Part shown: positions 3,773-30,231 of the stretch, piece by piece | Layout of the letters: every line of letters begins with the position of its first letter | How positions within the stretch are numbered: the stretch's first letter is position 1 | Origin: a virus | Strand: one strand, 5' to 3' | DNA: 31,804 nt | Virus record (IMG/VR): IMGVR_UViG_3300027969_000286 | Coordinates: 1-31,804 of that record | Made by a program: the position numbers and the translations under genes | Notes under the pieces: generated by a model | Told to the model about the DNA's origin: nothing | The model's input: only the letters and a program-made list of their open reading frames with translations | The model's database searches: none

Positions 3773-3792
3773 TGTATTTTGCCGTTATCTCT

Positions 3793-5688: not shown

Positions 5689-5691
5689 AGT

Positions 5692-16163: not shown

Positions 16164-16594
16164 AAGAATCTATAGTTTGTAGTGGTGCATTATTTTATGC
16201 CAAGTCCACACGACGATTCTTACTACTACAAAAAGCACATGGCAAACACGAAGGCACTTGGGGACTAGTAGGCGGTACAAACATCACTGGTGAAACTCCG
16301 TGGCAGGGTTTACAGCGTGAGATACAGGAAGAAATAAATGTACTTCCCACTATACTAAAAACAATTCCATTAGAAACATTTGTATCTAACGACCGTGTGT
16401 TTAACTTTCACACTTACTTGTGCGTGATTGACACGGAGTTTGTTCCAATATTAAGTGACGAGCATCAAGGGTGGGCATGGGCCACAATAGACAGAGCCCC
16501 TAAGCCATTACACCAGGGGCTACGAAACAGCTTCGGCAGTAAAATTATTCGTACCAAACTTCAAACAGTATTTGATCTAGTAGATTTAATATAA
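16145..16594 (+). CDS. Nudix hydrolase
   Basis: A 149-residue cytoplasmic enzyme. The Nudix box is present: G-x5-E-x7-R-E-I-Q-E-E-I-N-V at about residues 44-67. All metal-binding acidic positions are kept; the usual Gly near the end is Asn. Before it is W-G-L-V-G-G, the normal entry to the box. Nudix enzymes split nucleoside-diphosphate compounds such as damaged dNTPs, ADP-ribose or capped RNA ends; the substrate here cannot be told. The start is a TTG at 16145 inside the end of the gp15-like gene, since no ATG precedes the conserved region; GAGG lies seven bases upstream. The 19-base overlap suggests co-translation with the structural genes, an unusual place for such an enzyme. Confidence 0.8.
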   Translation: MENSTLKESIVCSGALFYAKSTRRFLLLQKAHGKHEGTWGLVGGTNITGETPWQGLQREIQEEINVLPTILKTIPLETFVSNDRVFNFHTYLCVIDTEFVPILSDEHQGWAWATIDRAPKPLHQGLRNSFGSKIIRTKLQTVFDLVDLI

Positions 16595-16785: not shown

Positions 16786-16793
16786 TATTTATA
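16786..16793 (-). promoter_or_regulatory. T4-type late promoter core for the 53-aa gene
   Basis: Perfect TATAAATA on the minus strand, 28 bases before the ATG at 16757, with GGAG in the leader. It also lies just past the stop of the oxygenase gene at 16803. Confidence 0.75.
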
Positions 16794-16802
16794 AGTTTAA
16801 AT

Positions 16803-17312
16803 TCATATAAAATTAAAATTGATAACAGCTCTGTATTTATGATCAGTACAGCTTGTTCCACTGTGCTTGTCCAAAGAATTAAAAATCACCAAACTGTTTT
16901 CTATGCTGGGCACTTGTTGACCGTCGTCTTCAAATTGTGTAAATCCGTTATTTGTATTGAGATACAATATTGCAGTTTTTGAAATTTTGGCTAAATCTTC
17001 ATTTACATCAATATGGTATCCGTACATTTGAACAGTGCCAGTACAACTGGTGATATTTGCCTTGGCTTTTATCAGCATCTGATGCGGCAATTTTTTGAAT
17101 ATTGGATCTAGTGTATTAATATATTTGCTAATAAGTGTTGGGCTATGATAAAATATATGAACAAATTGCAAATTAAATCGCTCATCACAACTTATATCTC
17201 TAGGATTACTCTTATCCTGCATAATCCAAGGAAATGATTCATTTAGAATTTGATTCTTAACTGCTATAAAATCAGTTCTTGATAAGAAATTATGAATAAC
17301 TTGTCTTGTCAT
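16803..17312 (-). CDS. Fe(II)/2-oxoglutarate oxygenase-like protein (HxD type)
   Basis: A 169-residue double-stranded beta-helix protein. The metal triad reads H100-I-D102 and H150, with R161 placed to bind 2-oxoglutarate in R-A-V-I-N-F-N. T-A-I-L-Y-L-N and F-E-D-D-G fit the core strands between them, as in prolyl-hydroxylase-like enzymes. The start chosen is the ATG at 17312, which overlaps the stop of the preceding oxygenase as ATGA; an in-frame GTG at 17336 has no ribosome site. Substrate unknown. It is the second gene of a leftward pair that diverges from the main island, so it may be under separate control from the rightward operon. Confidence 0.7.
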   Translation of the reverse strand: MTRQVIHNFLSRTDFIAVKNQILNESFPWIMQDKSNPRDISCDERFNLQFVHIFYHSPTLISKYINTLDPIFKKLPHQMLIKAKANITSCTGTVQMYGYHIDVNEDLAKISKTAILYLNTNNGFTQFEDDGQQVPSIENSLVIFNSLDKHSGTSCTDHKYRAVINFNFI

Positions 17313-17935
17313 GATTTCTGAGAACTTAATCTCCACTGATTATACACTTTACTAACTGCATCAGCTGGGCCGTACTCCGAATTAAAACTAACTACTACTC
17401 TTCGATCACTGTTATTAACCTCAGTACTATGCTCTAGCCAGCTAGGAAATAATATCAGCTGACCTTCTTTGCATTCAACTGAATGAAAATTTGTATTATA
17501 CTCGTTTGACCCTAGTAATACTTCAGCCATTCTACATTGAGCAAGCGGACTGTGAAAACTTAACCCAACAGATCCTGGAGGAGCATCTACATATAATGCT
17601 CCTGAAATTACACTCACTTCGTGCCTGTGCGCTTTTACACGATCTCCCTGACCCATAATATTGAACCAACTGTTTGTTATGATTATAGGAGGCATTTGTA
17701 AATCCATTGCCATTTGTTTTACTAGATTTTCAATTTTTAATCTTAACTTTCTAACACTAAAATGACTTAAAATTGGTGTCATGTCAGTACCGTAAGAACT
17801 TTTAGCATTGTTCACAAGCCCGTGCGGTTTGGTTGAATTTTCAGACTGTTGGATTAATTGTTTGAGATTGTTCCATTCTGGTTCTTGCGATAAGTCGTGG
17901 ATATCAATTCTGACTGGAAAGATTAGTGATTGCAT
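17309..17935 (-). CDS. Putative 2OG-Fe(II) oxygenase (HxHxxSxxSG family)
   Basis: A 208-residue protein of the family that Pfam, from memory, calls 2OG-FeII_Oxy_5. The core reads S-W-F-N-I-M-G-Q-G-D, then H103-R-H105-E-V-S108-x-x-S111-G-A-L-Y. The distal His is H169 in F-P-S-W-L-E-H-S, with Arg178/179 before V-V-V-S-F-N. The carboxylate of the usual HxD triad is occupied by His105, a feature shared with most members in this island. It starts at ATG 17935 with no visible Shine-Dalgarno; AATAAATA ends six bases before the start. Four-base overlap with the downstream HxD-type oxygenase. Substrate unknown. Confidence 0.7.
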   Translation of the reverse strand: MQSLIFPVRIDIHDLSQEPEWNNLKQLIQQSENSTKPHGLVNNAKSSYGTDMTPILSHFSVRKLRLKIENLVKQMAMDLQMPPIIITNSWFNIMGQGDRVKAHRHEVSVISGALYVDAPPGSVGLSFHSPLAQCRMAEVLLGSNEYNTNFHSVECKEGQLILFPSWLEHSTEVNNSDRRVVVSFNSEYGPADAVSKVYNQWRLSSQKS

Positions 17936-17941
17936 ATAAAT

Positions 17942-17949
17942 TATTTATT
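17942..17949 (-). promoter_or_regulatory. Late-promoter-like element for the leftward oxygenase pair
   Basis: AATAAATA on the minus strand, seven of eight matches to TATAAATA, ending six bases before the ATG at 17935. T4-like spacing would put the transcript start one base before the ATG. Confidence 0.4.
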
Positions 17950-17981
17950 AGCCTATTTTATCGGATGTGCTATTTGTGGTT

Positions 17982-17989
17982 TATAAATA
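17982..17989 (+). promoter_or_regulatory. T4-type late promoter core driving GroES and the enzyme island
   Basis: Perfect TATAAATA on the plus strand, 20 bases before the GroES ATG, with AAGGAG in the predicted leader. No terminator is visible before 30204, so it could serve the whole rightward run. Confidence 0.8.
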
Positions 17990-18009
17990 GTGGTAACAAG
18001 GAGTATACC

Positions 18010-18318
18010 ATGATTTTAAAACCAGTACACGATCGAATCATTATAAGAAAAGATGATCCAGAAACTGTAACAACAGGCGGAATTTTTATTCCCGATGTTG
18101 CCACAGAAAAAGTTACCAGAGGGACTATTCTAGCAGTTGGTCCAGGAAAATACGCCGAAAAAACTGGAGTGTTTATTCCAACCACCTTGAAGGTGGGAGA
18201 ACAGATTTTGTTTCATCCATTTGCTGGTACTGAAATGAAAATTGGAAACGATAGCCTCTATAATATGCCAGAAGGCGATGTCTGGGCAGTTATCGAAGAT
18301 GACGAACCAACTGTTTAA
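18010..18318 (+). CDS. groES: GroES-like co-chaperonin
   Basis: A 102-residue protein that follows bacterial GroES closely: L-K-P-V-H-D-R-I-I-I at the start, mobile loop T-T-G-G-I-F-I-P-D (about 21-29) with the hydrophobic tripeptide that docks on GroEL, T-R-G-T-I-L-A-V-G-P-G, then the V-G-E-Q-I-L-F segment. It caps host GroEL during folding. T4 gp31 and RB49 CocO do this for the capsid protein, but they are far more diverged from GroES than this one. The ATG at 18010 is preceded by AAGGAG and a perfect late promoter; an open frame back to 17926 has no support. As first gene of the rightward run it may also help fold island products. Its last 20 bases overlap the next gene. Confidence 0.92.
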   Translation: MILKPVHDRIIIRKDDPETVTTGGIFIPDVATEKVTRGTILAVGPGKYAEKTGVFIPTTLKVGEQILFHPFAGTEMKIGNDSLYNMPEGDVWAVIEDDEPTV

Positions 18319-18799
18319 TTTTTTAAACGATCAAGATTTCATTGATAGTAAACAAAATAATAAACATTTTGTTTTTAGAAATCTTGATCTAACTGCTCCT
18401 ACTTGGGGTGAAATTTTAGAAAATTTAAATCAAACCATTGTTTCTAAATCAAAAATAAAAGTTTTAGACAATCTTGGATTTGTATTTTTTGATGCAGAAA
18501 GAATGGTGTCTGTAAACAGCGTATTAACTGAAATTAAAAAAATTACAGATAAGCCTTGTACAGCACATTGTTATGTTTCGTTGCTAGAAATATCTAATAC
18601 ATTTGGAAGACACAACGATACTTCGGATGTATTTTTTTGGCAAGTGCAAGGTAATACCTTATGGAAGGTTGAACAAGGTGCAACAACTTACGAATATAAA
18701 TTATCTCCTAACGATTTAATTTATATTCCTAGGTTTATGTTTCACGATGTACTACCACTTGGGCCAAGAGCTGGTATATCTATAGGAATTGATTATTAA
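18299..18799 (+). CDS. Cupin/JmjC-like oxygenase
   Basis: A 166-residue protein. The C-terminal half has the cupin-type signature of JmjC-like 2-oxoglutarate oxygenases: F-G-R-H105-N-D107-T-S-D-V-F-F-W-Q-V-x-G, then W-K-V, L-S-P-N-D-L-I-Y-I-P, the distal H149 in F-H-D-V, and S-I-G-I at the end. Bacterial relatives hydroxylate ribosomal proteins or are of unknown function next to tryptophan halogenases. The start is ATG 18299, within the end of GroES; a longer frame back to 18242 lies entirely inside GroES. It is at the short end for the family, with about 90 N-terminal residues of no clear motif. Substrate unknown. Confidence 0.65.
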   Translation: MTNQLFNFLNDQDFIDSKQNNKHFVFRNLDLTAPTWGEILENLNQTIVSKSKIKVLDNLGFVFFDAERMVSVNSVLTEIKKITDKPCTAHCYVSLLEISNTFGRHNDTSDVFFWQVQGNTLWKVEQGATTYEYKLSPNDLIYIPRFMFHDVLPLGPRAGISIGIDY

Positions 18800-18800
18800 A

Positions 18801-19385
18801 ATGTTAGAAAATATTAAAGATTATATTTTTGTAAAAAATTGCATGCCTGCTGAAACTTGTGATCGTATGACTAGAGATCTTTCAAGAAATAAATGGACCA
18901 GACATCAATGGCAGAACTACGGTGTTGTGAAAGAAAGGCCTACTTTCCCCTCAACTGAATTAGAAGTATCCGAATCGTACCCTGAGCAAAACGAAATATT
19001 ATATCCGTTTATGGGCGAAGCATTGAAAGATTACCAGGATATTATCAGGGCAAATAATAGTTTTGGCCCATTTGTATCTAGTTGTGGAATACACATTGCA
19101 TGTCCTGTTAGATTTAATCGATATACTGTACACACAGCTATGAGAGCTCATCACGATCATATACATAATTTGTTTGACGGTGAACGCAAGGGGATTCCTA
19201 TTCTTTCAATTGTTGGGTTACTGAACGACAATTATGAAGGTGGAAAATTTATATTCTTTGAAAATCATGAAGTAGTACTTAAGAAGGGAGATATTATGGT
19301 GTTCCCTTCAATTTTTATGTTTCCACACAGAGTGGAAAATGTTACAAAAGGTGTTAGGAATAGTTTTGTAAGTTGGACATGGTAA
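18801..19385 (+). CDS. Prolyl-4-hydroxylase-like 2OG-Fe(II) oxygenase, copy 1
   Basis: A 194-residue protein with a complete HxD...H...R set: H117-H-D119, H176 in F-P-H-R-V-E, and R186 in G-V-R-N-S-F-V. The spacing of about 57 residues between D and H fits prolyl-4-hydroxylase-like enzymes. I-V-G-L-L-N-D and K-K-G-D-I-M-V-F-P are core strands. The ATG at 18801 follows the upstream stop by one base; an in-frame TTG at 18789 is less likely, as its AGGA is too close. The next gene is a clear duplicate with identical residue numbering of all ligands. Likely cytoplasmic. Substrate unknown; peptidyl proline or free amino acids are the family norm. Confidence 0.8.
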   Translation: MLENIKDYIFVKNCMPAETCDRMTRDLSRNKWTRHQWQNYGVVKERPTFPSTELEVSESYPEQNEILYPFMGEALKDYQDIIRANNSFGPFVSSCGIHIACPVRFNRYTVHTAMRAHHDHIHNLFDGERKGIPILSIVGLLNDNYEGGKFIFFENHEVVLKKGDIMVFPSIFMFPHRVENVTKGVRNSFVSWTW

Positions 19386-19389
19386 TAAT

Positions 19390-19974
19390 ATGGAAAAATT
19401 AACTGATTTTATCTTAATAGAAAATATAGTACCCATAGAATTTTGCGACGAGATTGTAGAAGAGATTTCAAATAATCACACTTGGGGTAAACATTCCTAC
19501 CATCCAGGATTTAAACGACCCACGGCTACACATTTTCCATCAACTGAATTTGAATTTTTAGATGCCGAAGAACATCTAAGTTTAAAATTGATGCCGTATG
19601 TTGAAAAAGTTATGAAGTCATATAACGCATTTATTAACAAAAACAATAGTTTTGCCGGTTATGATTCCGAGACTGGAGTAACATCTTGTACTCCTATTAG
19701 ATTTAATCGATGCAAAATGCACACACTGGTTGAAGCACATCACGATCATATACACGAATTATTTGGAAAAGGTAATAAAAGTATTCCGTCGGTATCTGTA
19801 GTTGGACTACTTAATGATACTTTCAGTGGCGGCGAGTTTGTTATGTTTAAAGACACAGATATGAAATTAAAGAAGGGAGATATTTTAGTATTTCCATCAA
19901 ATTATCTGTATCCTCACCGAGTAGAAAAGGTTACTAAGGGTGTTAGAAATAGTTTTGTTACATGGGCTTTTTAA
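19390..19974 (+). CDS. Prolyl-4-hydroxylase-like 2OG-Fe(II) oxygenase, copy 2
   Basis: A 194-residue tandem paralogue of the gene before it. The block A-H-H-D-H-I-H, the V-V-G-L-L-N-D strand, L-K-K-G-D-I-(L/M)-V-F-P-S and P-H-R-V-E-(K/N)-V-T-K-G-V-R-N-S-F-V are shared almost letter for letter, with H117, D119, H176 and R186 at the same positions. The N-terminal substrate-side half is much less similar (for example T-W-G-K-H-S-Y-H against K-W-T-R-H-Q-W-Q). Divergence in that half with a fixed core suggests that the two copies act on different targets. Four bases separate the genes. Confidence 0.8.
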   Translation: MEKLTDFILIENIVPIEFCDEIVEEISNNHTWGKHSYHPGFKRPTATHFPSTEFEFLDAEEHLSLKLMPYVEKVMKSYNAFINKNNSFAGYDSETGVTSCTPIRFNRCKMHTLVEAHHDHIHELFGKGNKSIPSVSVVGLLNDTFSGGEFVMFKDTDMKLKKGDILVFPSNYLYPHRVEKVTKGVRNSFVTWAF

Positions 19975-19977
19975 AAT

Positions 19978-20655
19978 ATGCATCCGTATAAAAATACAAT
20001 AGTTTGCAAAAATGATTTTTTTAAAAATCCTGACAACGTGTTACCTTTGTTTGATTCTCAATTGTACAGTAAATCTGTAGCATTTCCTGGAGTGCGTACT
20101 AATAATTTATTAGAATCGACAGACCCTGATACAAAAAACTTTGCCTTATTCTTTGCCCAGAAAATATGCGATGAGGTTTTTCCAGGAATATACAAATTAA
20201 TGATAGACGTTAGATTTCACATTAACCAAGTATACACAGATCAAACAGTTAATCACGGATGGATACACAACGATGAATCAGAGTTGGCTGGAGTTGTTTA
20301 TATGTCAAAAGACGAAAAGTCTTTAGATACTGGGACTTCTGTTTTTAGTAAAAAAACAATAGAGAATTTTAAAGTTGAGGATTTTGAATCAAGACAAGAA
20401 TTCAATATTTCAGGTATACCAACTGATCAATATATAGAAGATTTAAAAATTAATCACAATACATTTGCAGAAAATATTCGCGTTGGAAATATGTATAACA
20501 GACTTATTGCGTATGATGCAACATTATATCATAGACCAAATCGTTACAATTTAGATTGCAACGAATTAAGAAAAAGTATTGTGTTTTTTATTAGGGATAT
20601 TAAACATACATATACTTCGTCTGTTAAACTTAATTCTAATTGGGAGGATTCATGA
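19978..20655 (+). CDS. DUF6445-like oxygenase-fold protein
   Basis: A 225-residue protein. F-P-G-V-R-T (36-41), W-I-H97-N-D99, L-A-G-V-V-Y-M-S, T-G-T-S-V-F, N-x-x-N-R-L-I-A-Y-D and distal H185 followed by R-x-S-I-V-F-F fit the family I recall as DUF6445, which keeps the HxD...H...R set of 2-oxoglutarate oxygenases. Biochemical function is not known. In some Proteobacteria, DUF6445 genes are, to my memory, neighbours of tryptophan halogenases and cupin-like proteins, as they are here. The gene overlaps the next as ATGA at 20652-20655, so translation is coupled. Confidence 0.65.
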   Translation: MHPYKNTIVCKNDFFKNPDNVLPLFDSQLYSKSVAFPGVRTNNLLESTDPDTKNFALFFAQKICDEVFPGIYKLMIDVRFHINQVYTDQTVNHGWIHNDESELAGVVYMSKDEKSLDTGTSVFSKKTIENFKVEDFESRQEFNISGIPTDQYIEDLKINHNTFAENIRVGNMYNRLIAYDATLYHRPNRYNLDCNELRKSIVFFIRDIKHTYTSSVKLNSNWEDS

Positions 20656-21281
20656 TTTATAAGAGTCCACTATTTGAAGTGCCGGTTTATAGGATGAAGG
20701 CGTCTCGACACGCAGACGTTAAGGAATGGATGATAGAAAATGTATATCCTGATTTTGAAAAAAATGGACCAAACGAAGTTACTAGAAATTTATACAGCAG
20801 TTATTTTTCAGGCGCTCCAAAAATAGATAACGAGTTGTTTACTGAATTTTATTACAAAGACATAATTAAATTTTTAAATAAAATTGGGTTATCAAAAAAT
20901 AATGGTTGGGAAACAAAATTAAATTTTTGGTATAATTTATCAACTAAGGGAGCACATCAGGAAGTGCATGACCACTTAGGCGGGCCTATACCGATTTCAT
21001 ATGCGGCTATTCATTATGTATTGTTTGATAAAAATGAACATACTTCCGCAGTATTTTATCATCCGTTGACACAAATTCTTAAATGTACACAACCAACAAC
21101 TAGTGACCAAATTAAATTACCTGATTATAAAGAATTTCAAAAGTTATTAGATGTTGAGGAAGGTGATTTGATAATATTTCCAAGTTATGTATTACACAGC
21201 GTTATGACTCAACTTAGTGAAAAACTTAGAATAACAACAGCATTCAATATATGCATTTACGATAAAAATTGCCATGAGTAA
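20652..21281 (+). CDS. Putative 2OG-Fe(II) oxygenase (HDH type), copy 1
   Basis: A 209-residue protein. The N-terminus P-L-F-E-V-P-V-Y is the usual opening of the 2OG-FeII_Oxy_5-like family. Core: F-W-Y-N-L-S-T-K-G-A-H-Q-E-V-H106-D-H108, then A-I-H-Y-V, E-E-G-D-L-I-I-F-P-S-Y-V-L-H182 and R193-I-T-T-A-F-N. ATG 20652 is preceded by GGGAGG; an upstream in-frame TTG at 20640 would bypass that site. It pairs with the next gene: both have a Y-N-(L/F)-S-T segment, HDH and A-I-H-Y-V, which differ from the S-x-x-S-G version in other members. Substrate unknown. Confidence 0.65.
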   Translation: MIYKSPLFEVPVYRMKASRHADVKEWMIENVYPDFEKNGPNEVTRNLYSSYFSGAPKIDNELFTEFYYKDIIKFLNKIGLSKNNGWETKLNFWYNLSTKGAHQEVHDHLGGPIPISYAAIHYVLFDKNEHTSAVFYHPLTQILKCTQPTTSDQIKLPDYKEFQKLLDVEEGDLIIFPSYVLHSVMTQLSEKLRITTAFNICIYDKNCHE

Positions 21282-21918
21282 TGTTTCTACTATACCCTTA
21301 TTTCCTGTTAACATTTATAAAATAAAAGTTACTGAACATGAAAAAATTAAAAAACATCTCATGGATCACGTGCATCCGCATTTTTTAAAACACGGAGCAA
21401 ATGATCACATACAAAATACATTAACGGATTACGGACACACGGCCGATGCGGCATACTGTCACTGGCCTTACCTTCTTGATTTGTATAAGCCTGATATACA
21501 ATCCGTATTAGAAACAATTGGTTTTGATTTTAAAAAAGATCCATGGAGCATAAGGATGAAGGGTTGGTATAATTTTTCAACTTCAAATACCGCACAATTT
21601 GTTCACGATCACGCCGGTGGTCCTAGCACTATACAATTTTCTGCAATACACTATGTGGCACTGGGAGAAGGTGCTAGAGCAACTGTGTTTAATAATCCCT
21701 GGAGTAAATTATTAAAAGCAACTACTCCTACTAAGAATTTTGATTTTCTTCCTGATTATTTTAAAGATTTTGCCCGTGTTCCTGAAGTAGAAGAAGGAGA
21801 TTTGATTTTATTCCCTAGTTGGCTTGATCATTTTGCTCCAAATTTTACTGCTGGATCCCTACGTATCACAACTGCCCTTAATATTATGATGCGAGTAGAC
21901 AAGGGAGATGGGAATTAA
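21274..21918 (+). CDS. Putative 2OG-Fe(II) oxygenase (HDH type), copy 2
   Basis: A 214-residue paralogue of the previous gene. It opens with P-L-F-P-V-N-I-Y and carries W-Y-N-F-S-T-S-N-T-A-Q-F-V-H111-D-H113-A-G-G-P, A-I-H-Y-V-A, E-E-G-D-L-I-L-F-P-S-W-L-D-H186 and R197-I-T-T-A-L-N. Relative spacing of the ligands matches copy 1. The N-terminal 90 residues, which would form the outer helices, are only loosely similar, so a separate substrate is plausible. Eight-base overlap with the previous gene. Confidence 0.65.
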   Translation: MSNVSTIPLFPVNIYKIKVTEHEKIKKHLMDHVHPHFLKHGANDHIQNTLTDYGHTADAAYCHWPYLLDLYKPDIQSVLETIGFDFKKDPWSIRMKGWYNFSTSNTAQFVHDHAGGPSTIQFSAIHYVALGEGARATVFNNPWSKLLKATTPTKNFDFLPDYFKDFARVPEVEEGDLILFPSWLDHFAPNFTAGSLRITTALNIMMRVDKGDGN

Positions 21919-21919
21919 T

Positions 21920-22588
21920 ATGCAATATGGTGATTTGATTAATGTAGGAGTAATAGTGGAAGATTTAAATCCGTTTTTACTCAAACGAATACAACAGGTT
22001 ACAAAAACATTTAAAGATAGATTTGTGAGCAATACTTCGCCTGATATGCTGGAGCAGTTTCACAGGCGGGTAGACGGATACGATGAAGATAATTCAATTC
22101 CTGCAGATTTAAAAAAAGACATAACAACAGAAATTTTAAGATTAATCGACTTACACGAAGACAGATATGAGTACTTTAGCAAAATATTCAACTTTATAAC
22201 TGAGTTAGATCACGGAAAAGTTCAATTTGAATTAGAAAGAGTCTGGGTGAATATTCAACGTAAAGGGGAATTTTTACCTGTGCATAATCATACCGGTATC
22301 TATAGTTTTGTTATCTGGGCTGATGTTCCTTTTAATATAGAAGACGAGTATAAATCAACTCCAAATCCCACAACAGACAAGGGCAGGGCAGGGCATTTTC
22401 AATTTTTATATACTGATGCACTAGGAAAAATTACCACATTAAACTTGCCTGTTGATAAAAAATGGGAGGGGCGTATCTGCTTATTTCCTGCAGAACTAAA
22501 TCATCAAGTGTATCCTTTTTATAGTTCTAACGATGTACGTGTATCGATATCAGGAAATATACGAGTGAGGCCTTATGCTAAATTTTAA
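21920..22588 (+). CDS. Putative 2OG-Fe(II) oxygenase (HNHTG type)
   Basis: A 222-residue protein. A helical N-terminal half (about 1-100) precedes V-W-V-N-I-Q-R-K-G-E-F, then H122-N-H124-T-G-x-Y-S-F-V-I-W, F-P-A-E-L-N-H195 and R207-V-S-I-S-G-N. The closest relative in the window is the gene at 27287, with the same Y-S-F-V-I-W and P-F-Y-S-S segments. ATG 21920 is preferred to ATG 21908 because GGGA lies at proper spacing only for the former; the difference is four residues. The stop overlaps the next start by 14 bases. Confidence 0.65.
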   Translation: MQYGDLINVGVIVEDLNPFLLKRIQQVTKTFKDRFVSNTSPDMLEQFHRRVDGYDEDNSIPADLKKDITTEILRLIDLHEDRYEYFSKIFNFITELDHGKVQFELERVWVNIQRKGEFLPVHNHTGIYSFVIWADVPFNIEDEYKSTPNPTTDKGRAGHFQFLYTDALGKITTLNLPVDKKWEGRICLFPAELNHQVYPFYSSNDVRVSISGNIRVRPYAKF

Positions 22589-23183
22589 ACCAGTGACTCG
22601 AATAATTACAGATCCGCAGCTAGTATACGAATTTCCAGATGCTCTACCCAGCTGGGCAGTTAAATCAGGTGAAGAATATTTTAAAAAATTTACATTTGAA
22701 TACGGTCACCACGCAGTATCGCTAGATGACGGCGAACCGTATTTTGGAAAAATGATATTTTTAAGAGAAGAAAAAGTTAATCAACACTGTCCTACATTAG
22801 TACAAAATTTGTGTGACTGTTTACAATTATCCATACTGCCACAAATAGATCCCAATGGTAAGTTTATTGAATTACAGCGTATTGCAGTTAATGGACAAAC
22901 ACAGACACAGAGCCCAGGCGCTCACATCGATACAAGTACTGATTTAAATTTATGGACTGCTGTATACTACGTTAATGATAGTTCAGGTGATACAGTATTT
23001 TATAAATCTATTGCCAATTTAGAAGAAACAATCAGAGTTAAATTTCAACAAGGCAAGTTAATATTATTCCCCGCAAGTTTTTGTCACAGAGCTCTTGCAC
23101 CTAGTAGCGGTTGGAGAATATCAATAGGTATTACATTTGAATGGCATACTGAATTATCTAAATGTTATAAAAGAGATATCTAA
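22575..23183 (+). CDS. 2OG-Fe(II) oxygenase, prolyl-hydroxylase-like (HxD type)
   Basis: A 202-residue protein with H117-I-D119-T, W-T-A-V-Y-Y-V-N-D, D-T-V-F-Y, K-L-I-L-F-P-A-S-F-C-H171-R and W-R181-I-S-I-G-I. This is a complete canonical triad with the 2-oxoglutarate Arg, so catalysis is likely. The N-terminal half has no motif I recognise. It starts inside the end of the previous gene and its TAA shares one base with the next ATG, so it is firmly inside the operon. Substrate unknown. Confidence 0.75.
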   Translation: MLNFKPVTRIITDPQLVYEFPDALPSWAVKSGEEYFKKFTFEYGHHAVSLDDGEPYFGKMIFLREEKVNQHCPTLVQNLCDCLQLSILPQIDPNGKFIELQRIAVNGQTQTQSPGAHIDTSTDLNLWTAVYYVNDSSGDTVFYKSIANLEETIRVKFQQGKLILFPASFCHRALAPSSGWRISIGITFEWHTELSKCYKRDI

Positions 23184-23794
23184 TGAACACTTTTTCATGG
23201 AAAACCAGCTCTAGCATAATAGAACACACTAGCATACTGCATATAAAAAATTCAATAACTGCTAATCAACGAACTGCATTAATACAAGAAATACTGGACC
23301 ATAAACAAACAACGATAGACGAGTCAGGAAGTGAGAAAGGCTGCTGGAGAGGTCACCCTACGTTTAAAGATAGTACAATAACTGATCTGATACTAACGTC
23401 ATTTAATGTTTATATGAATTCATTGCCTCAGCCGGGCATGTTATCAAGTGATGGCACATATACAAAATTTAACAGCACTACACCTGCTATCCATTTTTGG
23501 TCTAATGTAAATTCCAAAGACGGCTATAATATTTCTCACACCCATGCAGGATCAATGGTTAGTGGAGTAATCTATTTGCAATCTACAGGAACCGGAACGA
23601 TTGAGTTCCAACCATTAAATTACATATATAAGATTAACCATCCTTGTTGGACATACAATGGAACTATGAAGTATGCTCCAGAAGATGGCGATATACTGTT
23701 ATTTCCGTCGTATCTACTACATAGGGTAGAACCAAATCCAATAGATAAAGAACGAATTAATGTTGCGTTTAATGTGAGTTACATACCTTTATGA
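23183..23794 (+). CDS. Putative 2OG-Fe(II) oxygenase (HTH, S-x-x-S-G type)
   Basis: A 203-residue protein. Core: H104-F-W-S-N-V-N-x-K-D-G-Y-N, H119-T-H121-A-G-S-M-V-S127-G128-V-I-Y, then D-G-D-I-L-L-F-P-S-Y-L-L-H180-R-V-E-P-N and R191-I-N-V-A-F-N. The motif H-x-H-x-x-S-x-x-S-G is the family hallmark; the second His replaces the carboxylate of HxD enzymes. The distal F-P-x-x-L-x-H-x-V-x-P-N element is very typical. Its stop overlaps the start of the first member of the next gene family as ATGA. Confidence 0.7.
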   Translation: MNTFSWKTSSSIIEHTSILHIKNSITANQRTALIQEILDHKQTTIDESGSEKGCWRGHPTFKDSTITDLILTSFNVYMNSLPQPGMLSSDGTYTKFNSTTPAIHFWSNVNSKDGYNISHTHAGSMVSGVIYLQSTGTGTIEFQPLNYIYKINHPCWTYNGTMKYAPEDGDILLFPSYLLHRVEPNPIDKERINVAFNVSYIPL

Positions 23795-24495
23795 ATATAG
23801 ATTTTTTTTGCACAGATGAAAATGTTCTTAAATACTGGCCGCCAAGCCCTGCAAGTAACTGTGTCCCAGAAGAAATATCAAACTTAGAAACTCCAAAAGA
23901 GAGATATAAGAGTCAAGAACCCCCTGTTGTGAACATAAAATCGTGTATGCCTGCAATGGATTATCTAACTTCAGGTTACATAATCTATAATGCATATGAG
24001 GTTGAGTTAGAAACTGTTTTTAATAATTTTAAAGAAACTATTAAACTTAAAACTGCTCAAACAATAAATCAACCTTCAACAGACGCTTTTTCTAGAAAAT
24101 CAATGGCTGTTTTTGAAAGAGATTCGTGCCCAATGAGTAAACACGATGTAAAAATTAAACAATATTTTAAATTTAGATCTATGTGGAGTATAAAAACGCC
24201 GCCTGGGTACAGTTGTCTAGTAATGCAACCATTTTACTTACCCAATAACGAAATTCAAATTCTTCCTGGCATCGTAGATACTGATTCTTATCATTTACCA
24301 ATTTCAGTAACTGGGTATGTAATTTCAAAAGATAAACTGCGTATATCTCCTGGAACACCGTTACTTCAAATAATTCCATTTAAAAGAGATGACTGGGAAA
24401 TGTCGGTTAGTAACAATGTGCCGTCAGACAAAAGTAAATTTTTTATTTGGAATACATATAAAAGGTTAAGCCATGCTGTTAAAAAATATATATGA
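23791..24495 (+). CDS. Uncharacterised phage protein, DUF6065-like family, copy A
   Basis: A 234-residue protein of unknown function, first of four paralogues. Conserved points: K-S-C52-M-P-A-M-D-Y-L-T-S-G-Y-I-I, W-S-I-K-T-P-P-G-Y-S (132-141), P-G-I-V-D-T-D (159-165), I-S-P-G-T-P (185-190) and I-I-P-F-K-R-D-D-W. The ordered pattern (Cys-Pro, T-P-P-G-Y, V-(D/E)-T-D, P-G-x-P, I-x-P-x-x-R) resembles what I recall of DUF6065, seen in bacteria and phages. No metal triad or P-loop is visible. No signal peptide. Its close packing between oxygenase genes suggests a shared task. Four-base overlaps on both sides. Confidence 0.6.
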   Translation: MNIDFFCTDENVLKYWPPSPASNCVPEEISNLETPKERYKSQEPPVVNIKSCMPAMDYLTSGYIIYNAYEVELETVFNNFKETIKLKTAQTINQPSTDAFSRKSMAVFERDSCPMSKHDVKIKQYFKFRSMWSIKTPPGYSCLVMQPFYLPNNEIQILPGIVDTDSYHLPISVTGYVISKDKLRISPGTPLLQIIPFKRDDWEMSVSNNVPSDKSKFFIWNTYKRLSHAVKKYI

Positions 24496-25202
24496 AATCT
24501 GAATCCATTATTAAATTTATTTCAGAGGATCGTGATGCAATGATACACTATCCTCCTGTTCCAGCATCTAAAATTATTCCAGAATGGTATAAAAATATTC
24601 CAGTAGCGTTGTCTAAAGATCCTGGATTTATTGATAATGATGGAGTTCCTTCTATTAAACGATGCATGCCAGTCTTAGATTATCTTACATCCGGATATAT
24701 TTTACGAAACTCTTATGAAATAAACGCAGATTTGTTTGTAAAGGATGGTATAAACAGTTTTACTTTAGAATGTAATAAAAAGAATTACGTAGGAGCTCAT
24801 CCTTTTCATCAAGCTCCAACAACTGAAATGACTGGCGAAAAAAATCATTATTTTAAAATTAATCAAGAGTGGGCTATAAGGACGCCACCTGGGTATAGTT
24901 GTTTGATATATCAACCACATTATCTATTTAGAAAAGAATTCAAAATGTTTCCAGCAATTGTTGACACAGATAAACACGATGATTTCGTAGGGCTTGTTGG
25001 ACTCATAACTACTGATCAGCCGTTTACTATTATGCCAGGCGACCCGCTAGTTACTATATTTCCATTTAAAAGAACAAATTGGAAAATGGAACTTAGCTAC
25101 GACAAAGACATTGGTTCTAGAAGTAGTTTCAAATACTTCTTGCACGGGCTATGGCATGGGTTTTATTCAAGATATTTTCATACCAAGAAGACCTATCGAT
25201 AA
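24492..25202 (+). CDS. Uncharacterised phage protein, DUF6065-like family, copy B
   Basis: A 236-residue paralogue of copy A: P-P-V-P-A-S near the start, K-R-C58-M-P-V-L-D-Y-L-T-S-G-Y-I, H103 and H106 in A-H-P-F-H-Q, W-A-I-R-T-P-P-G-Y-S (127-136), A-I-V-D-T-D, M-P-G-D-P and P-F-K-R-T-N-W. Unlike A it keeps the E-W-Y-K-N-I-P segment after the P-A-S motif, also found as W-(F/K)-K-x-(V/L)-P in copies C and D, so B looks like the more complete version. The His cluster and the invariant W, Y and D residues could form a binding site, but no function is known. Confidence 0.6.
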   Translation: MKSESIIKFISEDRDAMIHYPPVPASKIIPEWYKNIPVALSKDPGFIDNDGVPSIKRCMPVLDYLTSGYILRNSYEINADLFVKDGINSFTLECNKKNYVGAHPFHQAPTTEMTGEKNHYFKINQEWAIRTPPGYSCLIYQPHYLFRKEFKMFPAIVDTDKHDDFVGLVGLITTDQPFTIMPGDPLVTIFPFKRTNWKMELSYDKDIGSRSSFKYFLHGLWHGFYSRYFHTKKTYR

Positions 25203-25225
25203 AGGTACATACCGATATATAACGT

Positions 25226-25954
25226 ATGTTCAATTTCTTCTTTAAAAAATCAACTGTACACATAGATGTGTTTACATTCTTTCCGGGCATTATTGAATTG
25301 TTTCCAATTCGAGATGCAGACGAAATTATGCCCTCTTGGTTTAAAGCAGTCCCTACTAGTACAAAGTCTCCATCAGGATCTAGTGTTGCTACCGTGCGTA
25401 CTTGCCCGGGCATGGTAGAACTGTTTAAAGAAGGCATAATAATTCCTGCATGGTGCGATTTATATTTAGATTGGGCAAAAGGATCCTTATACAGTGAACC
25501 TGAAAACATGGGTAGTTCGCACCCAGACTGGCAATGGGATAAAAGTGCAGTATTTAAAGATTTTCATCATTTGAAAATAGGCAGTCCTTGGAAATTTAAA
25601 GAAAAAACTGGGTCTAAATTTATGATGACTAATTCTTGGTGGAATAAACCAGGGGTTAAACATTTTGTTCCTAACGGATTAATTGAATTTAAATATCAAC
25701 ACTCTTCTAACATTAATTTATGGATTCCTAAAACAGGATTTCCACAAAGCTACACAATAAATGCAGGAGAACCGCTATGTCAACTGATAAACATAGAGGG
25801 TAAGAAAATAAAATTTCATATGCATTACACAGATAAAGATAAAATTGATTGTGATGTTAATGATCACTTGTTTTCTCAAGTAGGGCAGTATTATAAAAGA
25901 AAAAAATTAATTCAAGAAAATTGTCCTAATTGGACTCCGGATACAAAAAAATAA
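25226..25954 (+). CDS. Uncharacterised phage protein, DUF6065-like family, copy C
   Basis: A 242-residue relative of the preceding pair but of a separate subtype shared with copy D. Points in common with D: F-P-I-x-x-A-x-x-x-M-P near 26-36, T-C60-P-G, G-I-I-I-P-A-W, S-H99-P, H-L-K-I-G-S-P-W-K-F-K-E-K-T-G, F-M-M-T-N-S-W-W, F-K-Y-Q-H-S-S and I-N-A-G-E-P. The common skeleton with A and B is Cys-Pro, G-x-I-I, H-x-x-x-Q, S-P-W or W-x-I-(K/R) and A-G-x-P. It begins 23 bases after copy B, the largest gap in this part of the operon, with only a weak ribosome site. The last ~30 residues are Lys-rich. Function unknown. Confidence 0.6.
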   Translation: MFNFFFKKSTVHIDVFTFFPGIIELFPIRDADEIMPSWFKAVPTSTKSPSGSSVATVRTCPGMVELFKEGIIIPAWCDLYLDWAKGSLYSEPENMGSSHPDWQWDKSAVFKDFHHLKIGSPWKFKEKTGSKFMMTNSWWNKPGVKHFVPNGLIEFKYQHSSNINLWIPKTGFPQSYTINAGEPLCQLINIEGKKIKFHMHYTDKDKIDCDVNDHLFSQVGQYYKRKKLIQENCPNWTPDTKK

Positions 25955-25955
25955 T

Positions 25956-26648
25956 ATGTTTACAATTTTTAGAAGACCTTCAAAAATTTATGTTGACTGT
26001 TTTACAGATTTAGAAGAACTGCCAAAGTTTTTTCCTATTCAACATGCTTCCGAACGAATGCCTGCATTTTGGAAAAATCTTCCAACTACTGTGCCTCATA
26101 TGGGACCGCAAAGGGGAACTATGAAAACATGTCCGGGAGTAAGTAGTTTGTACAGAACAGGATTTATAATTCAAAATTGGCATGATATGTGGGTCAGTGT
26201 TGATGGTAATACTCTTTCTTGGCAACCTCAGCCAGCGGCAGAATCGCACGAGCCTGGACAATGGGGTGATGCATTTAAAAATCATTATCATTTAAAACTA
26301 GTTAGCCCTTGGCGTATTAAAGAAAAAACTGGTGTTAAGTTTATGTTTACTAACACACTTTGGCACGATGAAGATTTTAAACCTAAAGTAGTGAACGGTA
26401 TAGTGGAATACAAATATCAGCATACTAGCAGTGTCAATATGCTTGTTCCTAAAAATATGTTTCCTAAATCTCAACTAATTCCTGCAGGTAAAGAACTAGT
26501 ACACATTGTACCGTTATCCGATAAAGATGTAGTAATCAAAATGCATGTAGTCAATGCAACAGAATTAAAAAAATTACAAAATTGGGTTTTTACATTTAAC
26601 GGTCATTATTTTAAACGTAAAAAATTATTACAAGACCGCGGAGAATAA
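25956..26648 (+). CDS. Uncharacterised phage protein, DUF6065-like family, copy D
   Basis: A 230-residue tandem paralogue of copy C: T-C-P-G-V-S, G-F-I-I-Q-N-W-H-D-M-W, E-S-H-E-P-G-Q-W, H-L-K-L-V-S-P-W-R-I-K-E-K-T-G, K-F-M-F-T-N, Y-K-Y-Q-H-T-S and I-P-A-G-K-E. Both C and D end in a basic Y-(Y/F)-K-R-K-K-L helix absent from A and B. One base separates it from C and one from the next oxygenase. The retention of four copies in a compact phage genome implies distinct roles or partners rather than a dosage effect. Function unknown. Confidence 0.6.
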   Translation: MFTIFRRPSKIYVDCFTDLEELPKFFPIQHASERMPAFWKNLPTTVPHMGPQRGTMKTCPGVSSLYRTGFIIQNWHDMWVSVDGNTLSWQPQPAAESHEPGQWGDAFKNHYHLKLVSPWRIKEKTGVKFMFTNTLWHDEDFKPKVVNGIVEYKYQHTSSVNMLVPKNMFPKSQLIPAGKELVHIVPLSDKDVVIKMHVVNATELKKLQNWVFTFNGHYFKRKKLLQDRGE

Positions 26649-26649
26649 A

Positions 26650-27282
26650 TTGAAAGAATTTACAGTTTCAACAACTTCTGGTGCATCTATAACAGGGATA
26701 TTTCCAATACCTGTTTATAAGAAAAATATTGGAAGAAAATTTACAAATTCTGAATTAAAAGCATCACAACCTGAAGCTTGGCATTTACGTCCAGGTAGTG
26801 ATAATGTTCGAGCTGACAGTACTTCAGTTCTTAATAGTCCTGCATTTTTTGGTCTTAAAAATTTTATTGACAATTGTTTGGCAGAGTTTTTAAAAGAAAT
26901 AATTGTGCCAGAAACTAAGTTTTCTTTATATGCTACACAAAGTTGGATTAATTTTAATAGAAAAGGTGACAGACATCATCAACATTTTCATTCGAATAGC
27001 ATAGTAAGTGGAGTGTTTTACCTTAATGCGCCTGAACCAAATTCAATTTCATTTCATATTCCCCAGCGACAATCTTGGCATATTCCAAATATACCAAATT
27101 GGTGGAATATGAGAAGTATTAGATTTCCTGTTTGTTCAGGTGATTTAGTTTTGTTTATGAGTGATCTAGAACACGGAGTAGACCCACAATCAAATGATGA
27201 AACTAGAGTTAGTCTTGCGTTTAATACTTGGTTTAAGGGTGAGATAGGAAGTAAAGAAGGATTGACATATTTGTCAAATTAA
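26650..27282 (+). CDS. Putative 2OG-Fe(II) oxygenase (HFH, S-x-x-S-G type)
   Basis: A 210-residue protein. G-I-F-P-I-P-V-Y opens the family domain; S-W-I-N-F-N-R-K-G-D-R leads to H112-F-H114-S-N-S117-I-V-S120-G-V-F-Y-L-N-A-P, then S-G-D-L-V-L-F-M, L-E-H175-G-V-D-P-Q and R186-V-S-L-A-F-N. It is a complete family signature, close to the leftward gene at 17309. The TTG start at 26650 is supported by GGAG seven bases upstream. Substrate unknown. Relatives in marine phage genomes are common in my memory but uncharacterised. Confidence 0.7.
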   Translation: MKEFTVSTTSGASITGIFPIPVYKKNIGRKFTNSELKASQPEAWHLRPGSDNVRADSTSVLNSPAFFGLKNFIDNCLAEFLKEIIVPETKFSLYATQSWINFNRKGDRHHQHFHSNSIVSGVFYLNAPEPNSISFHIPQRQSWHIPNIPNWWNMRSIRFPVCSGDLVLFMSDLEHGVDPQSNDETRVSLAFNTWFKGEIGSKEGLTYLSN

Positions 27283-27286
27283 TTAT

Positions 27287-27937
27287 ATGGCTCTTAGTAG
27301 TGTTGAAACTATCGATTTACAAAATATAGGTATTATAAAAGGCCATATCGATGACGATTCCTTAAATGTACTGCGAGCAGAAGTCATGGCTATTAAGGAA
27401 AACTTTAGCAGCGGTGTTCCTCACAACAAAGAACTTGCCGGCCATATTAGAAAAGAATTCTTACTATCTAAAAGTTGTAACAGTATAGAACCAATAGTAA
27501 TCGATTTGGCAACTCGCTATAACGAAAAATACAAGTATCCTATCTCAGATTTTGGAGTTCCTAGCGGTCAGCCTTATAAATTACAATTAGAAAGCCTATG
27601 GGTTAACTTTCAACAACGTTATGAGTTTAATCCGTTACATAGACATTCTGGTCTATATAGTTTTGTAATATGGTTGGAAATTCCTTATTTTTTAAATTTT
27701 GAACATTCTGTTAGTCCTGGAAAAGGTGCTATTGATAATAGAACTGGAATGTTTGAATTTACATATAATGATATATTAGGAGGAATACGAGGAGAATGTA
27801 TTGCAGTTGATAAAACTTACGAAGGCGATATAGTATTATTTCCAGCAGGTCTTCATCACATGGTACATCCTTTTTATAGTTCTGACAAATATAGAATCTC
27901 TGTGGCAGGAAATGTCACTGCTGTTAAACATGATTAA
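27287..27937 (+). CDS. Putative 2OG-Fe(II) oxygenase (HRHSG type)
   Basis: A 216-residue protein most like the gene at 21920: L-W-V-N-F-Q-Q-R-Y-E-F, then H118-R-H120-S-G-L-Y-S-F-V-I-W, D-I-V-L-F-P-A-G-L-H-H191, P-F-Y-S-S and Y-R203-I-S-V-A-G-N. The two are about 5 kb apart with other families between, so this is an old or translocated duplication rather than a simple tandem. The helical N-terminal half differs. Substrate unknown. Confidence 0.65.
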   Translation: MALSSVETIDLQNIGIIKGHIDDDSLNVLRAEVMAIKENFSSGVPHNKELAGHIRKEFLLSKSCNSIEPIVIDLATRYNEKYKYPISDFGVPSGQPYKLQLESLWVNFQQRYEFNPLHRHSGLYSFVIWLEIPYFLNFEHSVSPGKGAIDNRTGMFEFTYNDILGGIRGECIAVDKTYEGDIVLFPAGLHHMVHPFYSSDKYRISVAGNVTAVKHD

Positions 27938-28538
27938 TCAGCTATTCTCTACTCCAATATATGAGCATGACGGCACTATAGAGGAAATCTTTTTAGTCCA
28001 GAACGAAATAAAAACTATACTTCCTAAAATTCAGCAAACGGATGCATTTGAAAACCCTGCAGGTTGGAATGATGGGGTACAAACTAATATAAAATCAAGA
28101 TACAATACTATTGAAGATTTTCAAATGACTAATCTTTCAGCGTACATTGAAAAACATATTAGGAATTATATTAAGATGATCGGAGCATGGGAACCCATGC
28201 CTAATAAATTAGGTCATAGTTGGATAAATTTAGTATCTAAAGATCAGCGGCAGGATTGGCACCAACATCAAGATGCAACTATCTCTGGAACATATTATTA
28301 TCAAACATCTGGAACAGATGGAGACATAGTATTCGGGACTCCTAATCAGTTTGTTGAATTAGAATTATTTTCAATTGGATCAATGGTGAGTAAACAACAT
28401 GCTATACAACCAAAAAATGGAAAAATTGTGCTATTTCCAGGGTGGCTATCCCACAAAGTGGAACTCAACACCACTGACACTACTAGAATATCAATATCTT
28501 TTAACTATTTGAGAGACAATTTTAAAACCAAGACTTAG
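27930..28538 (+). CDS. Putative 2OG-Fe(II) oxygenase (HQH type)
   Basis: A 202-residue protein with the standard opening L-F-S-T-P-I-Y, S-W-I-N-L-V-S-K-D-Q-R, H111-Q-H113-Q-D-A-T-I-S119-G-T-Y-Y, K-I-V-L-F-P-G-W-L-S-H175-K-V-E-L-N and R186-I-S-I-S-F-N. Of the H-x-H-x-x-S-x-x-S-G motif the first Ser is Ala. ATG 27930 is chosen because it places the family opening at residue 3; an in-frame ATG at 27912 adds six residues and has its AGGA too close. Overlaps the previous gene by eight bases. It is the last oxygenase before the halogenase. Confidence 0.65.
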   Translation: MINQLFSTPIYEHDGTIEEIFLVQNEIKTILPKIQQTDAFENPAGWNDGVQTNIKSRYNTIEDFQMTNLSAYIEKHIRNYIKMIGAWEPMPNKLGHSWINLVSKDQRQDWHQHQDATISGTYYYQTSGTDGDIVFGTPNQFVELELFSIGSMVSKQHAIQPKNGKIVLFPGWLSHKVELNTTDTTRISISFNYLRDNFKTKT

Positions 28539-28540
28539 AG

Positions 28541-28555
28541 TCTGTACTAAACAGA
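28541..28555 (+). other. Small hairpin ahead of the halogenase promoter
   Basis: TCTGT and ACAGA form a five-base stem with loop ACTAA, three bases after the oxygenase stop. There is no T-run, so it is not a standard terminator. It could be an RNA processing or stabilising element, or chance. Confidence 0.3.
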
Positions 28556-28557
28556 TA

Positions 28558-28565
28558 GTTAAATA
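28558..28565 (+). promoter_or_regulatory. Late-promoter-like element for the halogenase
   Basis: GTTAAATA, six of eight matches to TATAAATA, 20 bases before the ATG at 28586 with AAGGA in between. The flanking 17 bases (28555-28571) are identical to those before the long fibre gene on the other strand, suggesting co-regulation of the halogenase with fibre expression. Confidence 0.5.
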
Positions 28566-28585
28566 TTAAAAAGGAACGATTAACA

Positions 28586-30205
28586 ATGAAAAATACTATT
28601 AATAAAATTATTATTGTAGGAGGCGGGTCAGCTGGCTGGATGACCGCGGCTACGTTATCACACGAATTTCCAGATAAAGAAATTGCCCTAGTAGAATCTC
28701 CAGATGTTCCAATTATAGGTGTTGGCGAATCTACTCTTGGAACTATTAATCAATATCTAGGACTACTAGGATTAGAAGATAAAGATTGGATGGAATATTG
28801 TAATGCCACTTATAAACTATCCATTAAATTTACGGATTTTTACGAACGTGGCCAAGAGTTTTATTATCCGTTTGGTGTAAAGGATATGCAAAATTGTCAA
28901 CAAGGCATTGCCGATTGGTATGTTAAAAAGACGTTAAATCCCGAAACTCCTAGTTTAGACTTTTATGAAAGTTTTTATAGTAGTATGCCGTTTATTTTAA
29001 ACAGCAAAATATACGATAATGCTGACGGGCAACTACCGGGTTTTAGTTTTAAAAACGATGCCGCTTATCATATGGATGCTACCTTATTTGGAGAATTTTT
29101 AAGAGAACGCTACTGCGAACCACGTGGTGTAGTGCATATTAAAGAACACATCAGTGAAGTACTGTTAAATGAAGAAGGTGAAGTTCATGCTTTAGTCTTG
29201 GGTAACGGCGATAGTATAGAAGCAGACTTGTACATTGACTGCTCTGGATTCAGAGCATTGCTGATAGAAGGTGCTATGAAAGTGAATTTTACTTCTTTTG
29301 AAAATATATTACCAAACAATCGTGCATGGGCTGTTCAAGTTCCTTATGAAGACAAAGAACTTGAAATGGAAAATACAACTGATTGTGTTGCAATAGATAA
29401 CGGGTGGGTTTGGAATATTCCTTTGTACAACAGAATTGGCAAGGGTTATGTATTTTCTAGTAAATTTGTTTCCGAAGACGACGCATTAGAAGAATTCAAA
29501 CAGTTTATAATGTCTCGTATGAAAGTTAAAAGAACTAGAGAACAAGTAGATGCTTTAGAATTTAGACTAATAAAAATTAAAAACGGAGTCCATGATAGAT
29601 GCTGGCATAAAAATGTTGTAGCTGTTGGACTGTCCTATGGGTTTATTGAACCTTTAGAAAGTACGGGTTTGTTAAGTGTACAGGAAATCTTATTAAAATT
29701 GTGCAGCACACTACATTTTAAAACAACAAATAAAATTCATATTGATAATTTTAATCATGTTGTTAGTGGAATCATGCATAATTTCAAATATTTTGTTGCA
29801 TATCATTTTACATTAAGCTCACGTAGAGATACACCGTATTGGAAACATGTTACTGAAAATATTGAAATGGAAAGTGAAATGTTGTTGCCTGGTGACCCTA
29901 AATCACGTACTCAGGTTGGAGAATTAGCTGCACGACTAATACAACAACATCATATTCCTGGAGATTTTTCAATGGGTGGTATTCCTGATATCTTTGTAGG
30001 GATGAATACTCTGCCTGTAAACCCTACCCAACTAAAAATTATGAATCAGATATTGCTTGGAAGAAATGGGTCAGCTCCTGAATTCTTTAATAATCAAACT
30101 CAAGATTATTGGAATCAGAAAAAAGAATATATTAATGGCCTAGCTTCTACAGCTCCTAGTCATTATCAATATCTCAAAGAAAATATATACAATAATAAAG
30201 AATAA
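28586..30205 (+). CDS. Flavin-dependent tryptophan halogenase family protein
   Basis: A 539-residue protein, the same length class as PrnA (538). FADH2 site G12-x-G14-x-x-G17-W near the N-terminus, then G-V-G-E-S-T-L-G-T-I. Catalytic lysine K77 in A-T-Y-K-L-S-I-K-F corresponds to PrnA Lys79; W274-V-W276-N-I278-P279 is the W-x-W-x-I-P motif that separates halogenases from monooxygenases; E358 in L-E-S-T-G-L corresponds to PrnA Glu346. All key residues are intact, so it should make HOCl/HOBr-derived Lys haloamine and halogenate an aromatic or other electron-rich substrate, using FADH2, O2 and halide. No flavin reductase is seen in the window, so reduced flavin must come from the host. It ends the rightward run at a strong terminator. 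Substrate unknown. Confidence 0.88.
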   Translation: MKNTINKIIIVGGGSAGWMTAATLSHEFPDKEIALVESPDVPIIGVGESTLGTINQYLGLLGLEDKDWMEYCNATYKLSIKFTDFYERGQEFYYPFGVKDMQNCQQGIADWYVKKTLNPETPSLDFYESFYSSMPFILNSKIYDNADGQLPGFSFKNDAAYHMDATLFGEFLRERYCEPRGVVHIKEHISEVLLNEEGEVHALVLGNGDSIEADLYIDCSGFRALLIEGAMKVNFTSFENILPNNRAWAVQVPYEDKELEMENTTDCVAIDNGWVWNIPLYNRIGKGYVFSSKFVSEDDALEEFKQFIMSRMKVKRTREQVDALEFRLIKIKNGVHDRCWHKNVVAVGLSYGFIEPLESTGLLSVQEILLKLCSTLHFKTTNKIHIDNFNHVVSGIMHNFKYFVAYHFTLSSRRDTPYWKHVTENIEMESEMLLPGDPKSRTQVGELAARLIQQHHIPGDFSMGGIPDIFVGMNTLPVNPTQLKIMNQILLGRNGSAPEFFNNQTQDYWNQKKEYINGLASTAPSHYQYLKENIYNNKE

Positions 30206-30231
30206 AAAAAGCCGCATTAAGCGGCTTTTTT
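30204..30231. terminator. Bidirectional Rho-independent terminator
   Basis: Stem AGCCGC (30210-30215) and GCGGCT (30221-30226) with loop ATTAA, flanked by seven A on the left and a run of six T on the right. It works for the halogenase transcript from the left and for the convergent minus-strand genes from the right. The only clear terminator in the window. Confidence 0.9.

Follow-up and report, generated by a model that had tools for sequence, protein, structure and literature searches.

An enlarged halogenase-oxygenase locus in a T4-like phage fragment, with a possible role in the modification of attachment proteins

Introduction

Do phages chemically decorate their attachment proteins? This central question is raised by a 31.8-kb viral fragment (IMG/VR record IMGVR_UViG_3300027969_000286, positions 1 to 31,804; the whole stretch is hereafter called the window), which carries neck, sheath and fibre genes of T4-like type and, among them, an array of oxygenase genes closed by a halogenase gene. 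Phages with many 2-oxoglutarate (2OG) oxygenase genes have already been reported (PMC3037559, PMC9602691). These oxygenases are usually listed singly, as metabolic genes; their joint occurrence makes one testable system. An earlier note on this DNA, made from the letters alone, had counted fourteen oxygenase-like proteins and proposed a dedicated oxidative-tailoring system directed at virion proteins or at a surface receptor.

Here we find that the same gene families recur at the locus of the halogenase VirX1 and at that of S-CREM1, both in cultured cyanophages. The array of the window is therefore an enlarged member of a recurring halogenase-oxygenase locus, i.e. it corresponds to the VirX1/S-CREM1 locus but is larger and has four paralogs of dUTPase fold. 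Such loci have previously been treated mostly as separate metabolic genes, the exception being the cluster of S-SSM6a.

Results and discussion

Organization of the array

The array (18011-30205) runs rightward in a single direction and is 99.3% coding, with intergenic gaps of -26 to +47 bases. It is as tight as the earlier note had said, with overlaps slightly longer than the 1-20 bases given there. Its order is GroES, JmjC_2, two PF13640 oxygenases, DUF6445, five more oxygenases, four DUF6065-like genes (phrog_7084), three PF13759 oxygenases, the halogenase and a terminator. Two leftward oxygenase genes, OxA and OxB (16803-17935), lie outside it. The description of a rightward array holding 12 of the 14 oxygenases, with GroES at its head and the halogenase and terminator at its end, is confirmed. 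As to content, oxygenases and halogenase had been recognized, but the four genes at 23791-26648, members of this operon and of a dUTPase-fold family, had been passed over, as had the link to VirX1.

The first gene, in this array as usually in related loci, encodes the GroES co-chaperonin (18011-18318, + strand; Cpn10, 2.5e-24). At the other end a terminator hairpin (30205-30231), found by hairpin detection, separates the array from the convergent fibre genes. There is no space within the array for a precursor peptide, and none of its genes encodes a scaffold-building enzyme (carbamoyltransferase, ligase or peptide synthetase). A nucleotide-level search of phage and plasmid collections with the array gave zero matches, so comparisons were made through protein and contig searches. 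The block is a single operon; that it encodes a multi-enzyme tailoring set acting late in infection has, in our view, about an even chance.

The oxygenases

All 14 proteins fall in the 2OG-Fe(II)/JmjC oxygenase superfamilies, as judged by profiles, active-site residues and, for one protein, fold prediction. The number given by the earlier note is therefore right, and Pfam and PHROG matches place the proteins in the families where it had expected them. Eleven of the 14 exceed the Pfam cut-offs; the other three are slightly below, i.e. OxA (25.6 of 27 bits), Ox8 (25.2 of 27) and DUF6445 (23 of 24), with support from PHROG or from the fold.

PF13759 (2OG-FeII_Oxy_5) is matched above cut-off by OxB (17309-17935, - strand; 1.4e-22; phrog_81; solved relative 2rg4 at 5.6e-13) and, on the + strand, by Ox5 (20640-21281; 1.7e-12), its paralog Ox6 (21274-21918; 4.7e-11; 38%; 13 orthologs), Ox7 (21908-22588; 1.4e-9; 13 orthologs), Ox9 (23183-23794; 5.4e-19), Ox10 (26650-27282; 1.1e-17), Ox11 (27287-27937; 5.2e-8; a paralog of Ox7, 32%) and Ox12 (27912-28538; 3.2e-21), the most widely retained oxygenase of the array with 14 orthologs. 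PF13640 is matched above cut-off by Ox2 (18789-19385, +; 1.3e-10; triad conserved) and Ox3 (19390-19974, +; 3e-10), both of phrog_61 and 45% identical, and JmjC_2 by the cupin-type protein at 18299-18799 (+; 1.8e-9; phrog_4992, phrog_8014). The two phrog_274/PF13640-like proteins are OxA (16803-17336, -; PF13640 2.4e-5, phrog_274 9e-40), which has HxD...H...R in its sequence, and Ox8 (22575-23183, +; 3.3e-5, phrog_274 7e-22), in which HxD...H...R is conserved.

Conservation across orthologs from related contigs was analyzed for the 12 array oxygenases, OxA and OxB having too few orthologs. The metal-site residues are invariant in all 12, and so is an Arg, for 2OG binding, about 8-13 residues past the distal His (12/12). 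JmjC_2, Ox2, Ox3, Ox8 and DUF6445 retain HxD...H. In most PF13759 members (Ox7, Ox9, Ox10, Ox11 and Ox12) the conserved pattern is HxH...H, which is also found in the aligned solved relative 2rg4; these members might have a three-histidine metal site.

The DUF6445 protein (19978-20655, +; phrog_1644) is a predicted 2OG oxygenase of prolyl-hydroxylase fold. Its HxD...H...R set (H97, D99, H185, R198) is invariant in the alignment. The model (predicted local distance difference test, pLDDT, 77) is matched best by PHD2 and by a bacterial prolyl 4-hydroxylase, each with Z 13.4; its matches include the EF-Tu-bound prolyl hydroxylase and, further down the list, OGFOD1. The PHROG label "minor coat protein" on phrog_1644 was rejected as a mislabel, the 2OG fold and triad being present. 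The same applies to "DNA endonuclease V" (phrog_274) and "ferrochelatase" (phrog_3531): the proteins so labelled match 2OG profiles.

The halogenase and the loci of cultured cyanophages

The array ends with a flavin adenine dinucleotide-dependent halogenase of VirX1 type (28586-30205, +; Trp_halogenase 6e-111). It carries GxGxxG, WxWxIP and the catalytic Lys (K77) and Glu (E355), the last two invariant in 17 sequences. Among solved halogenases it is closest to VirX1 from cyanophage Syn10 (6qgm, 1.1e-112), with about 40% identity. VirX1 has a large open active site, and a review gives it no stated biosynthetic context or native role (PMC8407142). Several halogenase-like genes, one of them divergent and short (about 400 residues), occur in or near one array in L015 (10001-15026), L038/G014 and L039/G015.

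In Syn10 the VirX1 gene was located at L112 8995-10587, where the sequence matches 6qgm. The ten genes directly after it belong to the DUF6065-like, PF13759, phrog_1644, JmjC_2, PF13640, phrog_274 and DUF6445 families. The VirX1 locus of Syn10 and Syn9 thus resembles the window in its halogenase, its DUF6065-like gene, its tight 2OG/JmjC_2/DUF6445 run and its proximity to Gly_rich_2 fibre-like genes. It differs in that the halogenases come first and are two, the oxygenases are fewer and there is one DUF6065-like gene against four. The Syn10-type DUF6065 gene was found in 15 cultured-phage records, representing about six distinct phages; in 14 of the 15 this dUTPase-fold gene follows a halogenase, from which about 65 bases at most separate it. 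The array of S-CREM1 likewise unites in one run a halogenase, a JmjC gene, eight genes annotated as 2OG enzymes and a "triphosphate nucleotidohydrolase", but is smaller (PMC9964418). Its authors saw separate metabolic genes and a halogenase of antibiotic type, and reported ten 2OG genes for this phage (PMC9964418). S-SCSM1, reported with 24 2OG genes genome-wide, shares with the window many divergent PF13759/PF13640 oxygenases in a single phage; in contrast, its 2OG genes are dispersed over the genome by open reading frame numbers, and the word "halogenase" is absent from its paper (PMC9602691). Many distinct subfamilies do occur in one block, as the earlier note had stressed, but the number of oxygenases has precedents in these two phages.

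In the main rival explanation a halogenated, hydroxylated small molecule or a polysaccharide would be made or trimmed during infection, as a secondary metabolite or a cell-surface decoration. Tailoring is commonly done by halogenases and by 2OG enzymes. The S-CREM1 authors regard their halogenase as antibiotic-related (PMC9964418), and Iyer et al. 2021 (PMC7824862) propose a metabolite or surface-decoration role for the ten-gene cluster of S-SSM6a, in which a cupin and several 2OG enzymes accompany a halogenase for amino acids, a combination close to that of the window. The S-SSM6a cluster is, however, defined by carbamoyltransferases, a HemK-like methylase and HAD phosphatases, and Pfam and PHROG profiles found no carbamoyltransferase, methylase or HAD phosphatase among the array genes of the window. 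Moreover the array encodes no builder of a scaffold, its operon lies amid virion genes and a late-promoter octamer stands upstream. We consider this explanation unlikely, while placing it ahead of the other rivals.

The DUF6065-like proteins

Four DUF6065-like genes occupy the middle of the array on the + strand: a (23791-24495; phrog_7084 3.5e-35, DUF6065 6.3e-5), b (24492-25202; phrog_7084 4e-35), c (25226-25954; phrog_7084 4e-20), which is without the IVDTD motif of a and b, and d (25956-26648; phrog_7084 1.3e-17), a paralog of c (37%). The fold was predicted for b, one paralog of the four (pLDDT 79). The best 50 structures matching the model are dUTPases only, the first being 2y8c (Z 12.4, root-mean-square deviation 2.4 over 121 residues), and Foldseek relates b to dUTPases at 5.6e-4. 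Known relatives of dUTPase fold are trimers.

The alignments were judged by eye. The dUTPase RSG motif and the glycine-rich motif V were not found in the DUF6065-like proteins, and the aspartate motif is kept in a and b and lost in c and d. With E. coli dUTPase, for which the query was an approximate sequence, only 16 columns are alignable. The DUF6065-like proteins have probably lost nucleotide catalysis. Since few of the active-site motifs are left, binding or scaffolding appears a likelier role than dUTP hydrolysis.

These observations bear on a second rival, hypermodification of nucleotides or DNA, in which the dUTPase-fold proteins would bind nucleotides and the oxygenases and halogenase would modify them. 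It draws on the fold itself, on the family member of HRTV-2 that neighbours thymidylate synthase, and on the annotation of the S-CREM1 copy as a nucleotidohydrolase. Against it stand the missing RSG and phosphate-binding glycine-rich motifs, the loss of the aspartate motif from c and d, the position of the array among virion genes, and the Pfam matches of the oxygenases, which are to PF13759, PF13640, JmjC_2 and DUF6445, with none to the TET/JBP or AlkB families. We rank this rival low and hold it to be quite improbable.

A bacterial origin was considered and rejected, a genome scan having given five weak DUF6065 relatives only. One of these, a lone DUF6065-like gene, stands directly behind a glycine-rich tail-fibre-like gene in a prophage-like region of Devosia with tail-type genes (L113 6709-9214). 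Further viral contigs, not mutually independent, were sampled for the neighbours of their DUF6065-like genes: 20 of 46 have a phrog_81 oxygenase upstream, and 16 of 38 have one of phrog_61 downstream. The gene is thus frequently flanked by two oxygenases. A compact three-gene cassette with overlaps of a few bases, i.e. a PF13759-type oxygenase, a DUF6065-like gene and a second oxygenase (mostly of PF13640 type), was observed in viral contigs L062, L063, L069-L071, L073, L076, L084, L088, L091, L093, L098, L108 and L109.

Conservation and selection

A scan of IMG/VR with the halogenase gave eight contigs with the same type of array in matching order, among which there are two pairs, L012/L013 and L015/L016, whose members seem in each case to come from a single virus. 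A scan with DUF6065 added more, to a total of about 14 distinct related contigs with conserved order, all of them fragments. In most relatives with flanks present the array lies between the neck, sheath-stabiliser, Nudix and GroES side and convergent fibre genes. Relatives differ by gained or lost paralogs and by additional halogenases; a core composed of DUF6445, Ox6, Ox7, DUF6065-like a, b and d, Ox12 and the halogenase is kept despite the other losses. The ratio of non-synonymous to synonymous substitution (dN/dS), with 16 genes tested, is 0.03-0.22 wherever estimable, which indicates purifying selection on these genes.

Could the array nevertheless be a hot spot that gathers duplicated oxygenase genes without any joint function? 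Several members are indeed mutual paralogs and the number of genes differs among relatives. But the purifying selection, the conserved core and the presence of the same mixed halogenase/DUF6065 set in distant cyanophages make this very improbable, the least probable of the rivals. The order is kept in related contigs, and a smaller set recurs in cultured cyanophages, so the genes have not been assembled at random; together with the profile placement this supports the dedicated system that the earlier note had proposed.

Late expression

A T4-type late promoter octamer (TATAAATA) matches exactly at 17982-17989 (+), 29 bases upstream of GroES, and would be the array's own promoter. Of nine related loci, six have the same octamer 29-57 bases upstream of GroES (two of these are copies of one virus). 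By count the octamer shows no enrichment in the window (3 observed against 3.95 expected); what is conserved is its position. Late expression, as the earlier note had put forward, is thus supported by a positionally conserved motif. A further exact match (16786-16793, -) is leftward and points away from the array, and sigma-70-like promoters are at chance level in the window.

Timing matters for a third rival, metabolic takeover, in which the oxygenases, as auxiliary metabolic genes, would target proteins or metabolites of the host or change 2OG levels. For cyanophages this is the customary interpretation (Sullivan et al. 2010, PMC3037559; S-SCSM1, PMC9602691). However, late expression would come late for a takeover, and 12 divergent, ordered genes with a halogenase and dUTPase-fold partners exceed what consumption of 2OG would need. 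We regard it as improbable, somewhat more so than the metabolite explanation.

A possible role in virion modification

The conservation of the set in related fragments and its smaller counterpart around VirX1 suggest that the halogenase, the oxygenases and the dUTPase-fold proteins act together. Modification of late phage proteins is favoured on account of the late octamer, the tail-gene setting, GroES, the protein-hydroxylase-like member, the absence of any scaffold-building enzyme and, in the VirX1 relative, an accessible active site. Late modification of fibre or adhesin proteins is the role that fits best, and we give it an even chance. From the location of the array and the protein-hydroxylase fold of one member we infer that virion proteins are modified; a single pathway, a protein substrate and fibres as that substrate are inferred likewise. 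The co-expression of GroES fits with folding of late proteins. JmjC_2 proteins of other organisms hydroxylate ribosomal proteins. In Syn10, S-RIM44, S-CREM1, P-TIM40, Sf-FR1 and Sf-CH11, genes resembling Gly_rich_2 fibre tips adjoin the halogenase.

The mechanism proposed for this best-fitting role is as follows. Late in infection, new tail-fibre and adhesin proteins would be folded and modified prior to assembly. Each oxygenase would hydroxylate particular side chains, exposed aromatic residues would receive halogen from the halogenase, and the dUTPase-fold proteins would serve as binding or scaffold partners. A bolder reading, which we think rather less probable, is that the phage encodes a line of several enzymes for tailoring its virion, by which attachment proteins would be both hydroxylated and halogenated, the dUTPase-fold proteins having been repurposed as scaffold or substrate-binding partners. 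If true, this would also provide VirX1 with a native substrate.

Several points weigh against virion modification. The setting among structural genes may only reflect late expression or an insertion hot spot, and a fold resembling that of protein hydroxylases is no proof of function. The dUTPase fold could indicate nucleotides instead: the DUF6065-like gene of the haloarchaeal virus HRTV-2 (L031 5710-7780) is downstream of thymidylate synthase, and a relative of the family in S-RIM4 is near ribonucleotide reductase. The halogenase family includes enzymes that act on free tryptophan and other small molecules, and cyanophage halogenases are also located outside any such array, e.g. in S-B64. No Gly_rich_2 was found in the available DNA of the remaining contigs of the freestanding clade. 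Searches of the open-licence literature found no paper that names DUF6065, none that links phage halogenases to fibre modification, and nothing on the bacterial TonB/SapC context. For a host surface receptor as the target, the other possibility raised by the earlier note, this analysis gave no support.

Neighbouring virion genes

Convergent to the array, a fibre gene (30877-31803, -) has a weak C1q-like tip (C1q 2.2e-4, below cut-off); it is both a neighbour and a candidate substrate. Most relatives with the right flank present have this gene duplicated or triplicated in tandem. On the other side of the window, three adjacent fibre genes (1373-8160, -) match five Gly_rich_2 domains, one of these genes having laminin-G-type lectin domains too. 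They are followed by a fibre protein (8162-11752, -) with profile matches to a CBM5/12 carbohydrate-binding module at its N terminus and to an endosialidase chaperone (Peptidase_S74) at its C terminus. A substrate of collagen type was considered and rejected: the fibres examined are without long glycine-X-Y collagen repeats, and several are glycine-rich instead. Finally, a Nudix hydrolase gene (16145-16594, +) overlaps the sheath-stabiliser gene; its counterpart in L015 is equally placed and 85% identical.

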